From the IMG/VR virus record IMGVR_UViG_3300008108_000039, positions 1 to 64,000 of that record: a stretch of DNA of 64,000 nucleotides; one strand, written 5' to 3'. Made by a program: the position numbers and the translations under genes. Below, piece by piece: positions 2,677 through 22,939 of the stretch. Below the pieces are notes generated by a model. The model worked only from the letters and a program-made list of their open reading frames with translations, was not told the origin of the DNA and ran no database searches. Position 1 is the first letter of the stretch; each line of letters starts with the position of its first letter. The stretch comes from a virus.

Positions 2677-3129
2677 CTATGTTAATGATGACTTCCGTAA
2701 AATGATTATTTTGTACCAACCATAACCGTTTGATGTTTCAACTCCATAAGGAAATACATCTTTATCATATTTAACCTCACATCTATCAAAAGGAACTCCA
2801 CTTTCATTTGCATTATTAACAAACCATTCTAAGAACTCATCATCAATAGCTTGTACACCATCATTGATTAAGTCTTGGTCTGTTGTTAGGATGATTATAT
2901 CTTGTTTAGAAGAATATTGAGCACCTCCCGAATTGTAAGGCTCATTTAATACTTTGTCTAAATACCATTGGTCAACACCTTCTTTAATTTCTTCTTCTGA
3001 TGTGATGTAGATGTTTACATTGTTCCAAAGTTGTGGGTTATTCATTGAAGAAAACATTAACTCTTTTGTAATTCTTCTTTGAACTAGCCTACTTGGTTTA
3101 TCCGTTGGTAATACGTGTATGTTTTTCAT
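2677..3129 (-). CDS. Hypothetical protein, 150 aa
   Basis: Acidic protein with the stretch DEFLEWFVNNANESGVPFD. The C-terminal half resembles the previous gene's DTAEFAEWLTLNTNS segment in layout (acidic, then EWF or EWL, then Asn-rich), so the two may be distantly related. It is the first coding gene after the large noncoding RNA region. Function unknown. Confidence 0.7.
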   Translation of the reverse strand: MKNIHVLPTDKPSRLVQRRITKELMFSSMNNPQLWNNVNIYITSEEEIKEGVDQWYLDKVLNEPYNSGGAQYSSKQDIIILTTDQDLINDGVQAIDDEFLEWFVNNANESGVPFDRCEVKYDKDVFPYGVETSNGYGWYKIIILRKSSLT

Positions 3130-3134
3130 ATTTT

Positions 3135-3945
3135 GTTTTTAAATAATTAGCACCCTCTTATCTTATTAACGTGCATTTCAGTTCTACACTGTAGTCCCTT
3201 TTAATAAGAGTAGGGTCACGTAGTTAACTGTGGGTCTTTCGGGGTTTCTGTTAGTTCCAAAGAACCTGCAATGAACCAAACCCTTAGTCTTATCATTGCT
3301 TTACAGCTTCAACCATTAACTACTTGCTGAGAACTTGTTCGTGTATACTTCCAGTATATCTCTATACATCTGGTACACGCCTATCATCTCTGATAGGTTT
3401 TTGAAACTGTAAGAGCAAGACCCTCTGTTACTGGACTAATTGTAACCGCAGGATTTATACTTGACCTATTATGTGGTATTTCCAAAGCCCACCACTCACA
3501 GTTTCAGGGATTTCATTAACCCTCGTTGATAACGACGCTCGGTATTTCTCCAACTACGTGTCTTACTATTACTCCACAAATCACGTGGTAGTTTCTGTGT
3601 CGCTAATTATCAACTACATCCAGATTATGTATTATGCTGGATGATTTTTAAGTTTAACCCTGTCACTCCAAGAATGTGAATACCCGTGATGCTCCTTAGG
3701 TTCATCTTTGGTAAGGCTTTCAAGTATCTGTCCCCAAACAACTCCATCTTGGTAGGGATTCTAATACTCACATTGTTTCTGTAACTCTCTTGAGCACGTT
3801 ACCCATGCAAAGGTTTTTATCCTTTATATTGGCTTGTTAATTCCTACCCCAAGTGTCCAGGCTTTTGAGTCATTTAAAAGTTAACAACATTAAACATGTC
3901 TTAACTTACTTATTTATTTGCTTTCAGCAGGGTTAATTATTTTCA
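3135..3945 (-). ncRNA. Large structured noncoding RNA candidate (about 800 nt)
   Basis: No plausible reading frame covers this stretch, and its base composition is clearly richer in G+C than its surroundings. On the minus strand it holds many helices. One hairpin at 3381-3398 (CCTATCA-GAGA-TGATAGG) has a GNRA tetraloop only on that strand. Others are near 3616-3640 (ATCCAG/CTGGAT) and 3427-3445 (GTTAC/GTAAC). Size, phage setting and ornate folding recall the GOLLD and ROOL classes of giant bacterial and phage RNAs, but I cannot assign it to either by eye. Confidence 0.6.
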
Positions 3946-3951
3946 AAGAAC

Positions 3952-4122
3952 TTATTTCTTCTTGTACATTGGATTTCCTTTTACTGAAGGATATCCTTTA
4001 TATAATGGTTTTGATGGTTTTACACCGCGAGTAAAATATTTTTTATCAGTTGTAGGACAAGATTGTTTACTACATGACATTAAAACAGAAATAATTACTA
4101 ATAACATTAATACTTTTTTCAT
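3952..4122 (-). CDS. Small lipoprotein, 56 aa
   Basis: The ATG at 4122 opens a 56-codon frame. Residues 1-16 form a short signal peptide (MKKVLMLLVIISVLMSC) with a lipobox ending at Cys17. The mature part is about 40 residues, basic and Pro/Tyr-rich, ending NPMYKKK. Expected location is the host membrane. It starts in AAAAGGTTATG behind the promoter at 4139-4162. A possible role is superinfection exclusion or lysis, but nothing in the sequence decides this. Confidence 0.7.
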   Translation of the reverse strand: MKKVLMLLVIISVLMSCSKQSCPTTDKKYFTRGVKPSKPLYKGYPSVKGNPMYKKK

Positions 4123-4138
4123 AACCTTTTATTTGAAA

Positions 4139-4162
4139 TAAATGTACAACTTTTATTTTGCC
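4139..4162 (-). promoter_or_regulatory. Phage promoter-like element (GGCAAAAT-N8-TACATTTA)
   Basis: GGCAAAAT (4162-4155) and TACATTTA (4146-4139) are separated by 8 nt and lie 16 nt before the lipoprotein ATG. The element sits directly behind the thyA stop codon. It may also drive the large RNA downstream. Confidence 0.7.
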
Positions 4163-4164
4163 TT

Positions 4165-5292
4165 TTAATTACTTAAAGGTGCTTTAATTGCAGGGTGTGA
4201 TTGATAGTTTCCTAACTGTATATCTTCTTCTAATAGACATCTTATAAAATCATCATTAGATAAGGCTGAAATAAATACACTTTTACTTAATGGTCCTATT
4301 CCGCATTCACCGCTTTCTGTTTGCCAAAATTCAGTGTTAATATTTAATGATGGTAATTCATAAGGTGTTCTTGTAACCTGTTCTTTAGCTTGTTCAATGT
4401 GGTTATTGTAAAGGTGTACGTCACCTAGGTTGCCAATCAATTCATCAGGTACCATATTAACTACTTTAGCTATAATTTCTAATAGTAGTCCATAAGATGC
4501 TATGTTGAATGGTAATCCAAGGAATGTATCTACTGAACGTTGATTCCACATTAGAGAGATTGCTCGTTTAGGAACGCCGTATTCGTCAAAATGAAATTGT
4601 TTGAAGTTAATACCACTTATATGTAGTTGTAAATCTCTACCACATACTTTTTTGTAAATTTCAAATCTTTCATCGTGACTCAACTCTCTCGTATAAACTT
4701 GAAATCCATAATGACAAGGTGGTAACACCATTTGGTCCAACTCACCTACATTCCACGCATTAACCATTAAACGTCTTGAATCAGGATTTGTTTTGAGTTC
4801 GTTGATTAGGTTTGCGATTTGGTCAATTGGTTGTTGCGATGATTTAGGGTCCCCGATAGTTTTAATTGGTTTTTTCCAACTTCTCCACTGCTTCCCATAC
4901 ACGGGTCCGAGTGACCCCCACGTCTTAGCAAACTCATCATCTGTTTTTATTTTGTTGATGAATTCACTCTTTAACATACCTCCTTCATCTTCAGAACTTA
5001 TTATTTTATTTTTAATACAGTAATTTTTCCAAGCATCTCCATCCCAAATATGACAATCATTATCCACTAAGAATTTAATATTTGTATCTCCACGTAAAAA
5101 CCATAGTAGTTCAGTTACTATACCTTTAAAGTACATTTTTTTAGTGGTTAATAGTGGAAATCCTTCACTCATCCTATGACGGATTTGTCTACCAAATACT
5201 GATAGTGTACTACCATTTCGAGTTTCCTTAACAACTCCGTTGTCAAGTCTGTCTTGGAGGAGTGATTGGTATTGACGGTCTATATTATTCAT
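4165..5292 (-). CDS. thyA: Thymidylate synthase
   Basis: Makes dTMP from dUMP using methylene-tetrahydrofolate. The catalytic Cys is in LPPCHYGFQVY (about residue 191), preceded by the nucleotide/phosphate motif SRRLMVNAWN. The N-terminus has the usual FPLLTTKKMYFKGIVTELLW segment. At 375 residues it is longer than typical bacterial enzymes, with extra sequence around residues 90-135 and in the C-terminal third. The start overlaps the upstream gene by 8 nt (ATGAATAA). It fits the nucleotide-supply role shared with dCTP deaminase elsewhere in the window. Confidence 0.96.
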   Translation of the reverse strand: MNNIDRQYQSLLQDRLDNGVVKETRNGSTLSVFGRQIRHRMSEGFPLLTTKKMYFKGIVTELLWFLRGDTNIKFLVDNDCHIWDGDAWKNYCIKNKIISSEDEGGMLKSEFINKIKTDDEFAKTWGSLGPVYGKQWRSWKKPIKTIGDPKSSQQPIDQIANLINELKTNPDSRRLMVNAWNVGELDQMVLPPCHYGFQVYTRELSHDERFEIYKKVCGRDLQLHISGINFKQFHFDEYGVPKRAISLMWNQRSVDTFLGLPFNIASYGLLLEIIAKVVNMVPDELIGNLGDVHLYNNHIEQAKEQVTRTPYELPSLNINTEFWQTESGECGIGPLSKSVFISALSNDDFIRCLLEEDIQLGNYQSHPAIKAPLSN

Positions 5293-19187: not shown

Positions 19188-19655
19188 TTATTTATTTTTT
19201 CCTGTATAGGTATTAGTTAAGGAGTGACAATTAGGGCAAAGGAATCTTAAATTAGATAATTTATAATTCCAAGCATTACCATCAATATGATCTAAATGTA
19301 AAGATAATTTTTTACCTATCCACTCTGAAATTCCACATTCGTTACATTCTTGCGGAATAAGATTTTCTTGTATAATACGTTTTCTTACTGAAGCACGAGT
19401 TGCATAATCCTCTATACTAATTATTCTTTTTTTGAAATTCTTTTTTAATCCTTTACCTGATTGGTTTGTATTGTAACAACCATATTCTATAGCGTATCTT
19501 TTAAAGGTATTAATATGCAATCCTAATCTAGAAGCAGCATGTGACATTGATTCACTACTATTACATATATCAATGAACTCTTGTTGGGGAATATCTTTGG
19601 GTTTAATTCCTGATTTTTCCCAGCTATTTGGTTTTTTAGTATTATATTGTTTCAT
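19188..19655 (-). CDS. HNH endonuclease with N-terminal helix-turn-helix
   Basis: The first 60 residues contain an HTH-like segment (SMSHAASRLGLHINTFKRYA), as in intron-type DNA-binding modules. The C-terminal HNH core is ECNECGISEWIGK, then SLHLDHIDGNAWNYKLSNLR, then FLCPNCHSLT, with zinc-binding Cys pairs. It sits just downstream of the intron-bearing tRNA-Leu gene. It may be a free-standing homing endonuclease connected to spread of that intron, or an independent mobile gene. Confidence 0.88.
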   Translation of the reverse strand: MKQYNTKKPNSWEKSGIKPKDIPQQEFIDICNSSESMSHAASRLGLHINTFKRYAIEYGCYNTNQSGKGLKKNFKKRIISIEDYATRASVRKRIIQENLIPQECNECGISEWIGKKLSLHLDHIDGNAWNYKLSNLRFLCPNCHSLTNTYTGKNK

Positions 19656-19699
19656 ATCAATAAATATTGGTAAATACTAGAAACCAATATTTTTTTGTG

Positions 19700-19981
19700 T
19701 GCCCCCAACGAGAATCGAACTCGTACTCGCTTACTAAGCGAACAGGATTTTCTTACTACTATAGCTTTCGCTACCTTTTCAGTTTGTAGTCTGGACTATA
19801 CCTTCACCTTATTTTTCAACTTAGGTGTTCCGTGTCTAGTCTCTACACCTTCCCTTTCGGGCTTGGCTCGGTATTACCATTTTAAAGGCTTCACCGAATT
19901 TACGGAATTTTACTCTTTAGATTTCTCTAAAGGCACTCAAATAACTAAGTCCTGCGTGTCTACCTATTCCACCACAGGGGC
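19700..19981 (-). tRNA. tRNA-Leu(UAA) interrupted by a group I intron
   Basis: Exons 19947-19981 and 19700-19751. Acceptor GCCCCTG/TGGGGGC, D-arm GTG-GAATAGGTAGA-CAC, anticodon stem CAGGA/TCCTG with loop CTTAAAA once joined, long variable arm TCGCT-TAGTA-AGCGA, T-arm ACGAG-TTCGATT-CTCGT. The break lies after U34 of the UAA anticodon, the same site as in cyanobacterial and plastid trnL introns. Confidence 0.9.
19752..19946 (-). ncRNA. Group I intron (tRNA-Leu), about 195 nt
   Basis: Self-splicing intron, with features seen on the minus strand: P2-like hairpin CTTTAGA-GAAA-TCTAAAG, Q-like AATACCGAGCC, P6-like CCCGAAAGGG, R-like GTAGAGACTAGACACGG, S-like AAGGTATAGTCC, and a P9-like TAGC-GAAA-GCTA hairpin. 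The last base is G, as required, and GAGTGCC near the 5' end can pair with the exon GGACTT to form P1 with a U-G at the splice site. It has no open reading frame. The order and motifs fit the compact tRNA-Leu (IC3-like) group. Confidence 0.88.
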
Positions 19982-19984
19982 ATT

Positions 19985-20101
19985 TGCTGTCTTTCCAGCA
20001 GTCAGAAGAACTTGAAACTTACCTACGCACCAGTGAGGTATTCTTCATGTTTGTTCACAGAGCCTAAGCAGTGTCTAGTATGCTTTTGGTTGTCGTGCGT
20101 A
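19985..20101 (-). ncRNA. Structured element X, copy A (upstream of tRNA-Leu UAA)
   Basis: Closing stem TACGCAC (20101-20095) with GTGCGTA (20030-20024), inner hairpins AGCA/TGCT and GTGA/TCAC, a single-stranded linker, and a 3' hairpin TGCTG-GAAAGA-CAGCA that ends 3 nt before the tRNA 5' end. Conserved blocks with copy B at 23112-23230 include TTAGGCTCTGTGAA and CGTAGGTAA. Class unknown. Confidence 0.7.
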
Positions 20102-20196
20102 TCAATGATAGTTTATCCTTTTTACTCATCAAGTAATCCGTCCTATTGTAGGCACTTTGGCTCCTTAAAAACATACTACCAAACTAAACATCCTCG

Positions 20197-20353
20197 CTGT
20201 AAGGGAAGGATTCGAACCTTCATACGGTGATTCAATAAACGACATTTGTACTGCAGCTTGTGGTCAATCCTTATCGTTTATCTATTTCATTTTCCGCGCC
20301 CACGAGACGAGTGGGTGTGTATACCATGGTCTAGACTCTTTCACCACCTTACA
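20197..20353 (-). tRNA. tRNA-like RNA with enlarged D-loop and variable region
   Basis: Acceptor TGTAAGG (20353-20347) pairs with CCTTACA (20204-20198), and the T-arm GAAGG-TTCGAAT-CCTTC is perfect. D-stem GTG/CAC encloses an 22-nt loop. The next stem CCCAC/GTGGG has loop TCGTCTC, which lacks U33. The rest, about 75 nt, contains an 8-bp stem ATAAACGA/TCGTTTAT. It is not a standard tRNA and does not look like tmRNA. It could be a tRNA with an insertion, a decayed class II tRNA, or a tRNA-mimicking RNA. Confidence 0.5.
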
Positions 20354-20366
20354 ATTTTGTTTGATT

Positions 20367-21397: not shown

Positions 21398-22939
21398 TTA
21401 TATTTCAATTGCTTCAATAGCTTTAATCAGTGCTTTTGGATCAATTTCTACTTTTTTAATCAGTTCATAAATGTCTGATGAATATCCGTAAATACCATAA
21501 ACTTTACTTCCTGGTTTAAACATTGTAGTTCCATATCCGCAAATATCTACTGAATATACATGCATATTTGCATATGCTGATTTTTCTATGTGATCTTTAC
21601 CTTGCATATCTGAAATTATAAACACACGATCATAGTTTTTTCCTATAGTTCTGAATATGCTTTCAAATGCTGTTCCATATCCTACTGATCCTTGTTGACC
21701 TAAGAATTGATTCTTAAGTGTATTTACACTATCAAGTGGGTTAAACTTAATTTGAGTAGTTCTATCAGCAAAATGATAAACATCGGCATTAATACCCTTA
21801 GCTAATGTAGCTGCAATTAATGCTGCTTTTGCAATAGCGGATTCTGAACCAGCATTTTTATTAGCTAATCTAATTCGTGAGGTCATTGAACCTGAACTAT
21901 CAAATATTACTGCTGTTTTTCCATGTGGAAATAATTCAGTTAAGTTTGGAATAGCTAACTCATAAGCTGTATTTAAAGCATTTATAAATGGTCTTGCTCC
22001 ACTTGCTCCAAATTCATCTAACATTATTTCTAATGCTAAATCAATTTGGTGAGGAAATACTAATGATTGCTTAATTAGAGCTTTATCAGTTAATAATTCA
22101 CAAGCACCTTTAATAACTTCGGATTTAGCTCCTGTTTTTAAGATGTTTCTTAAGTTACGTAGTAACGCTAAGTAACCAATCTTACGAGTTTCAATCAATT
22201 CAGCAAAGTTATCTTCTTTAGCTTCATTTAATACTGCTACAGCTTGTTCAGCAGTAATTTTTCCTGCTTTTACTTTAGCTGCTACTTCTTGACCTGCTTT
22301 AGTATTTTTATCTTCTACTGTGTTAAATTGCTTTAACTCACCTTTCATCAATTTAGCAAACACTGACTTCATCTTTTCAGAAGGTTTTGGGTGTACTAAA
22401 TTAATAATATCAACTAAAGATAAATCACGATTTTTAGCTTGATATTTTGCTAATTCATATTCATCAGCTGCTTCTAAAGCCGCTTTAAATCCTTTTTTGA
22501 TAGCGTTTGATAATTGTTTACCTGGGTTTCTAGCTTGATAGCATGCTGCTATTTCTAGCATATCATCTAAACGATAGATGACACCACCAGCATTTGCTTT
22601 TCTTTCTCTTTTAGAGAAGAATCTAGCACCTAAACTATCACCAGCTAATACTTTAGCTAATTCTACAGCACCAAAGTGTGTAACAGTTCTTTGACCCATA
22701 ACACTACGAGCATATACCATTGCTTTTGCAGCGAATACTTTATCAGTTTTAGCTACTTCAGCAATAACATTAGCAAAACGTTGTTCGCGTTCACCTAGTT
22801 TTTCATAATACTTATTATCCAAACCTGTAGCTAAAATTGCTACTAGTTCAGTTTTTGAATCATATTGATAACCATTTCCACCTTGGTGGTTTACAACTGT
22901 TTGTACAGTTGGTTTTGCTTTTGCATTAAAACGTGCCAT
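21398..22939 (-). CDS. rsr: Ro60-like TROVE domain RNA-binding protein
   Basis: Ro60 proteins are ring-shaped and bind the ends of misfolded RNAs and Y RNAs. The N-terminal about 330 residues are helical repeats typical of the TROVE ring. Residues about 340-513 form a von Willebrand A domain with the MIDAS motif in AVIFDSSGSMTSR and a second metal loop IISDMQGKD. Length 513 fits bacterial orthologues. It lies amid tRNA genes and beside a structured RNA; phage Ro60 genes beside tRNA clusters are also known in mycobacteriophages. Possible jobs are tRNA quality control or steering a nuclease. Confidence 0.94.
   Translation of the reverse strand: MARFNAKAKPTVQTVVNHQGGNGYQYDSKTELVAILATGLDNKYYEKLGEREQRFANVIAEVAKTDKVFAAKAMVYARSVMGQRTVTHFGAVELAKVLAGDSLGARFFSKRERKANAGGVIYRLDDMLEIAACYQARNPGKQLSNAIKKGFKAALEAADEYELAKYQAKNRDLSLVDIINLVHPKPSEKMKSVFAKLMKGELKQFNTVEDKNTKAGQEVAAKVKAGKITAEQAVAVLNEAKEDNFAELIETRKIGYLALLRNLRNILKTGAKSEVIKGACELLTDKALIKQSLVFPHQIDLALEIMLDEFGASGARPFINALNTAYELAIPNLTELFPHGKTAVIFDSSGSMTSRIRLANKNAGSESAIAKAALIAATLAKGINADVYHFADRTTQIKFNPLDSVNTLKNQFLGQQGSVGYGTAFESIFRTIGKNYDRVFIISDMQGKDHIEKSAYANMHVYSVDICGYGTTMFKPGSKVYGIYGYSSDIYELIKKVEIDPKALIKAIEAIEI

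Follow-up and report, generated by a model that had tools for sequence, protein, structure and literature searches.

Few large RNAs of unknown function have been described from bacteria and phages, and the known ones, OLE, GOLLD, ROOL and HEARO, proved structurally or mechanistically surprising. GOLLD (RF02032) and ROOL (RF03087) are large ornate phage RNAs that form RNA-only cages, are often found near tRNA islands and have no known function (PMC12286853). GOLLD combines a conserved with a variable part and sometimes holds tRNAs inside it, while ROOL is encoded by phages or prophages and contains pseudoknots and kissing loops (PMC12286853). Here we describe an RNA of ~810 nucleotides (nt) encoded on the minus strand of a large phage genome, IMG/VR record IMGVR_UViG_3300008108_000039, of which we analyzed positions 1 to 64,000 (hereafter the window). 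A model working from the letters alone (hereafter the sequence-only reading) had marked positions 3135-3945 as an ornate noncoding RNA candidate of about 800 nt, perhaps of a new class. Our comparative analysis leaves little doubt that this region encodes a conserved structured RNA. By sequence comparison, the RNA belongs to a common family of phage RNAs, with members so far from phages of Bacteroidota.

Two covariance models, each built with the window left out, carry this conclusion. R1 describes the P4 and D2 elements listed below from 22 sequences, and R2 describes domain I from 11; their expectation (E) values, obtained with a shortened calibration, should be read as rough. R1 matched the window at 3314-3402 on the minus strand (49.8 bits, E=1.8e-8, on that rough scale), and across the whole 167-kb record this was its sole significant match (E 4.7e-8; next 0.64). 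R2 matched 3651-3944 on the same strand (75.7 bits, E about 6.6e-19; next match 0.05). Because both models match, the window RNA is a composite of ~810 nt in which domain I is joined to a 3' half. The same composite layout occurs in locus L097. In L091 domain I leads into a terminator-like hairpin, and L155 and L233 have the 3' half only. The adjacency of domain I and the 3' half in the window and in L097 suggests that they form one molecule. Its features, in 5' to 3' order after the whole, are:

3139-3951, minus strand: whole RNA, ~810 nt, gene-free and matched by R1 and R2, with a probable 5' end near 3951 and a probable 3' end near 3142-3139
3940-3951, minus strand: boxA-like signal GTTCTTTGAAAA, directly past the stop-codon region of the open reading frame (ORF) at 3952-4122
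3651-3944, minus strand: domain I, comprising P1, P2, P3 and P2b, from the R2 match and covariation
3928-3936 with 3654-3662, minus strand: P1 of domain I, UUAACCCUG/CAGGGUUAA
3914-3920 with 3735-3741, minus strand: P2 of domain I, CAAAUAA/UUGUUUG
3743-3758, minus strand: P3 hairpin of domain I, with ACCAAG in its loop
3722-3727 with 3680-3685, minus strand: P2b of domain I, AUACUU/GGGUAU
3668-3753, minus strand: likely pseudoknot of the P3 loop ACCAAGA (3747-3753) with UCUUGG (3668-3673), its complementarity kept in relatives
3403-3524, minus strand: module of a hairpin GGG..CCC (3507-3522) and a stem GAAACUG/CAGUUUC (3499-3505 with 3403-3409), shared in part with L155 and L233
3380-3397, minus strand: P4, hairpin CCUAUCA-GAGA-UGAUAGG with a GNRA tetraloop, from covariation
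3340-3379, minus strand: D2, outer stem CGUGUA/UACACG around the hairpin GUAUA-GAGA-UAUAC, from the R1 match
3326-3336, minus strand: near-invariant AAGUUCUCAGC, conserved columns in alignments A1-A3
3220-3323, minus strand: P8 stem GUAGUUAA/UUAACUAC (3316-3323 with 3220-3227) around a variable insert, here the module AAGGGUUU..AACCCCGAAAGACC
3152-3216, minus strand: P9 stem ACCCU/AGGGU plus UCUUAUU/AAUAAGA, part of the covariation set
3142-3158, minus strand: conserved 3' end AGAGGGUGCUAA.., in which GUGCUAA is invariant in class-B relatives

Module order is shared within the family. The 3' half consists of the hairpin and long stem at 3403-3524, then P4, D2, UUCUCAGC, P8 with its insert, and P9 ending in GGGUGCUAA. 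The best boundaries of the RNA run from ~3951, at the boxA-like start, to ~3142-3139, at the GGGUGCUAA end.

The helices of both halves covary. In domain I, 34 alignment cells changed on both sides of a pair against 11.0 +- 2.8 in shuffled alignments, with none of 1000 shuffles as high (13 sequences, window included). Across P4, D2, P8 and P9 there were 52 double changes against 16.4 when shuffled, again with none as high (0 of 500; 18 relatives, window excluded); 90.8% of cells in this alignment were paired, and sliding the partner strand left at most 17 double changes. P4, the GAGA-capped stem that the sequence-only reading had picked out on the minus strand, is among the best covarying helices: all six family-consensus pairs show double-sided change, and the loop is mostly GNRA throughout. 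P8 changes on both sides at seven of its eight pairs. Because sequence hardly varies in the D2 helices or in the inner half of P9, they give little evidence either way. Together, the P4 GNRA hairpin, D2 and the near-invariant UUCUCAGC characterize the family, and R1 finds all of them in the window.

Two tertiary features are suggested by complementarity. The P3 loop complements the CUUGG just 5' of the 3' strand of P1, which makes a pseudoknot in domain I likely, and the UCUC of AAGUUCUCAGC complements the D2 loop GAGA and may contact it. We also weighed a terminal pairing in the window's free-energy minimum, AAUAAUUA/UAAUUAUU, as a candidate closing stem but dropped it, since P1 as defined by comparison pairs the neighboring 5' strand.

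Relatives were reached mainly through short motifs. When 50,697 phage genomes were searched by BLAST with the window, nothing passed 1e-5; at E<=5 the search returned short pieces only, of which a piece in Cellulophaga phage phi14:2 and a Rhizobium phage module look meaningful. We collected 80 IMG/VR loci through the neighboring thymidylate synthase gene and compared them with the region. Locus L056 showed a weak two-part match inside a tRNA cluster, and strings common to it and the region were turned into exact patterns and scanned over viral contigs. These scans found the 5'-domain loci L082, L084, L085, L087, L091, L093, L094, L097, L100, L101, L106 and L107, several of which have in common a second motif, GUUGUUCCCUUGAGAAAGGA. 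This 20-base core motif matches at least 120 IMG/VR contig stretches exactly, a lower bound on family size, yet the family is absent from Rfam 15; relatives from the scan carry modules of the window RNA's 3' half. Gathering homologues by exact motifs biases the apparent conservation of those motifs, but not that of helices outside them. Degenerate-pattern matches L088, L089, L095, L096, L098 and L102-L105 were false positives. Over genome contigs the domain-I pattern had no match and the D2 motif had four. Two of these show the full family pattern, in contigs of a Sphingobacteriales metagenome-assembled genome (MAG; L226), which carries the RNA, and of a MAG labelled Mollicutes (L227); L225 and L228 are unrelated coding-like DNA.

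The locus itself behaves as noncoding. The gap at 3130-3951 (822 nt) holds no minus-strand ORF of 50 or more amino acids (aa); most genes of the phage record lie on that strand. With both strands counted, the longest ORF in the gap has 57 aa. Stop-free runs on the sense strand are no longer than in shuffled sequence, and no reading frame is conserved among relatives, so we rejected a protein-coding reading. G+C content is 0.38 in the gap against 0.30 in the window and 0.31 in the flanks, a richness equaled by 6% of 811-nt windows. The minus strand folds at -207 kcal/mol (z=-3.5; none of 20 shuffles reached this value), more strongly than the plus strand (z=-1.8). The sequence-only reading was therefore right that the stretch is gene-free, richer in G+C than its surroundings and dense in helices, but not strictly right that it is the only long gene-free stretch outside the tRNA region, as a second one of 711 nt lies at 19656-20366. 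Two outcomes that it had named as refuting it, homologues that do not covary and a reading frame conserved in relatives, did not occur.

How does this RNA relate to those already described? A scan of the region against Rfam 15, whose models include GOLLD, ROOL, OLE and HEARO, gave nothing at the gathering score; up to E=10 it gave three weak matches (Entero_CRE, SNORA24 and bxd_4) that we take as chance. Like GOLLD, the new RNA is large, ornate and phage-borne, with a conserved and a variable part, yet the window's record has no match to the GOLLD covariance model (gathering 150 bits). The same search found a separate GOLLD in 6 of 32 carrier phages (L245, L246, L247 and the records of L161, L174 and L094), with E values between 1e-77 and 1e-96, so one phage can hold two large ornate RNAs. 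GOLLD loci as the source of the new RNA were rejected after three of the six were compared and showed no significant similarity to it. ROOL is likewise large and phage-encoded, with pseudoknots such as the one likely in domain I; none of the 32 records matched its model (gathering 99 bits; a search without a positive control), and none appeared in the Rfam scans. The lack of a GOLLD or ROOL match, together with the separate GOLLD in carriers, indicates a different family that may nevertheless work like these two. The suggestion of a GOLLD- or ROOL-like candidate holds for an ornate phage noncoding RNA of such size, while the setting differs slightly, the window copy lying ~19 kb from the tRNA island.

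Other known classes are more distant. Group I introns (RF00028) are also structured RNAs in phage genomes, and one lies at 19771-19957 of the window; the tool that finds it gives no group I match in 3000-4200 up to E=10. The Y RNA-like RNA YrlA (RF02553) joins a tRNA-like module to a structured part, and a Ro60-type (TROVE) gene is present in the phage, but YrlA gives no covariance match, the new RNA is far larger, and the window member is without a tRNA-like module. A literature search that left most subscription papers and preprints outside its reach found no description of the family. As far as we found, then, it is uncatalogued, in keeping with the earlier idea of a new class.

Alignments of the parts indicate that family members are mosaics of a few modules. 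The best relative of the window RNA differs from part to part: L091 for the 5' part (70% identity over ~300 nt), L097 over 77 nt (80%), L155 and L233 over 34 nt of the module at 3403-3524 (97%), L167 for the P8 insert (79% over 164 nt) and L133 for the 3' end (76% over 85 nt). In many members a tRNA-like element takes the place of P9 after the core. Its acceptor and T arms are normal, and its anticodon region is irregular and in many cases enlarged. We count 65 such candidates of 70-168 nt, some of which are ordinary tRNAs. The module AAGGGUUU..AAACCCCGAAAGACCCACAG (3224-3319 of the window RNA) also occurs alone between genes in 193-kb Rhizobium phages. One such lone copy, matching no Rfam family, is:

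L253 2475-2560: module AAGGGUUU..AAACCCCGAAAGACCCACAG in Rhizobium phage RHph_N28_1, at ~76.6 kb

The RNA is sparse within a genome and patchy across genomes. Of 31 records examined, 27 contain the D2 motif in one or two copies. Among 50 phages selected solely for a related thymidylate synthase, two match R1 and three match R2 at E<=0.01, two of the latter weakly. Flanking genes are not common to relatives, many of which adjoin tRNAs. Two carrier contigs have a tmRNA (Rfam RF00023) near the RNA (L133 2254-2658 and L169 180-505).

An intact 3'-half form, at ~2910-3378, is present in the isolate Cellulophaga phage phi14:2 (Crassvirales, Steigviridae), so that the host is Bacteroidota where it is known from an isolate. 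In the phi14:2 record (KC821624.1; L229 3106-3431), three small minus-strand genes, gp007-gp009, are annotated over the RNA on the opposite strand; they are probably not real genes. In Cellulophaga phages phi4:1 and phi17:2 the P9 hairpin alone remains. Because phi14:2 is sequenced and its host is in culture, studies of expression, structure and knockouts are feasible, and the two remnant-only isolates offer a natural comparison to phi14:2.

The start of the RNA carries a boxA-like signal, GTTCTTTGAAAA, probably equivalent to the boxA of ribosomal RNA leaders. Its form GTTCTTTGAAA occurs once in the window, where 0.07 occurrences are expected. BoxA-like motifs lie upstream of 16 of 85 relatives against 1.6 expected, and boxA-like UUCUUUGAAA is found ~10 times as often upstream of D2 as in the rest of the loci, an excess for which tRNA arrays could account in part.

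Taking these observations together, we consider the best explanation to be, by analogy, a trans-acting ornate phage RNA that works like GOLLD and ROOL, to which we give a rough probability of 0.55. For its mechanism we see about even odds on the following outline. A stable RNA would be made during infection, with boxA-type antitermination averting Rho termination. P1, the P3-loop pseudoknot, the GNRA hairpin P4 and the D2/UUCUC contact would fix the architecture of a compact body, on which the variable arms would be displayed at fixed positions. The RNA might then serve as a trans-acting scaffold or assembly, the role proposed for GOLLD and ROOL, with a host target in translation or RNA metabolism, possibly through self-assembly. 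In many members, the attached tRNA-like elements hint at a link with tRNA or ribosome biology. More tentatively, and with doubt prevailing over confidence, the family could rank with GOLLD and ROOL as a third major class of ornate phage RNA, at times sharing a phage with GOLLD. Its members would be mosaics built from exchangeable modules, would be common among large and crAss-like phages of Bacteroidota, and would form a defined assembly, of RNA alone or of RNA and protein, acting on host translation. Several results count against the trans-acting reading. The window's free-energy minimum is limited to P4, part of P9 and the outer stem of D2, so the structure model rests on comparative evidence and not on folding energy. 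The pseudoknot and the loop contact are almost invariant, which leaves covariation unable to test either. Patchy presence and reduction to a remnant in phi4:1 and phi17:2 show that the RNA is dispensable.

These same data bear on the alternatives. A cis-acting leader promoting read-through or processing of downstream tRNA arrays or genes, like put RNA or a boxA leader, would explain the boxA-like motif at the RNA start, the ARAGORN-predicted tRNA within 700 nt downstream in 37 of 85 relatives, and the way the window RNA stops 10-20 nt short of the next start codon. We think it unlikely: downstream genes are not conserved, 33 of the 85 relatives have no tRNA within ~2 kb on either side, a leader fits poorly with one or two copies per genome, and known antiterminator RNAs are far smaller and less conserved. 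Ranked just after it, and improbable too, is a counter-defense decoy whose tRNA-like parts titrate a host nuclease or an RNA-binding defense factor. Patchy presence and mosaic arms fit an arms race, and the tRNA-like elements that come after the core in many relatives would suit a decoy, but the window's own RNA has no such element, conservation is highest in the junction and loops and not in exposed bait, and no defense partner was identified.

Patchiness, module exchange and the 3' remnant in phi4:1 and phi17:2 could also be expected of a ribozyme, or of a mobile RNA resembling an intron, with insertion sites between genes. This we regard as very unlikely, since the RNA matches no Rfam group I, group II or self-cleaving ribozyme family, lies between genes and not inside them, leaves a remnant that is no clean excision, and has no maturase or transposase gene seen adjoining. 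That the region is merely GC-richer decayed coding or tRNA sequence with a chance fold is barely credible. Single z-scores as large as that of the minus strand can come from composition, but comparative evidence, namely covariation and the window-blind model matches, already contradicts this explanation.

Elsewhere, the virus record (167,479 bases) encodes thymidylate synthase, a family-B DNA polymerase and 24 ARAGORN tRNAs. Beside the tRNA island, at 21398-22939 on the minus strand, is a gene for a TROVE-domain (Ro60/Rsr) protein of 513 aa. Such a gene occurs in 5 of 40 RNA carriers against 0 of 42 comparison phages, an unmatched comparison; as most carriers are without it, we regard a partnership between Ro60 and the RNA as too weak to claim and as a lead only.

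The second gene-free stretch, 19656-20366, holds two structured elements. On the minus strand, a tRNA-Leu(UAA)-like gene at 19700-20000 is split by the group I intron (core 19771-19957, 75 bits, E=4.2e-19). An HNH endonuclease gene occupies 19188-19655, immediately downstream. The split gene escaped both ARAGORN and a fast Rfam pass. At 20190-20366, also on the minus strand, lies a tRNA-like element of ~160-170 nt with an ordinary acceptor (GTAAGG/CCTTAC) and T arm and a greatly enlarged middle, which resembles the tRNA-like elements found 3' of the RNA core in relatives.
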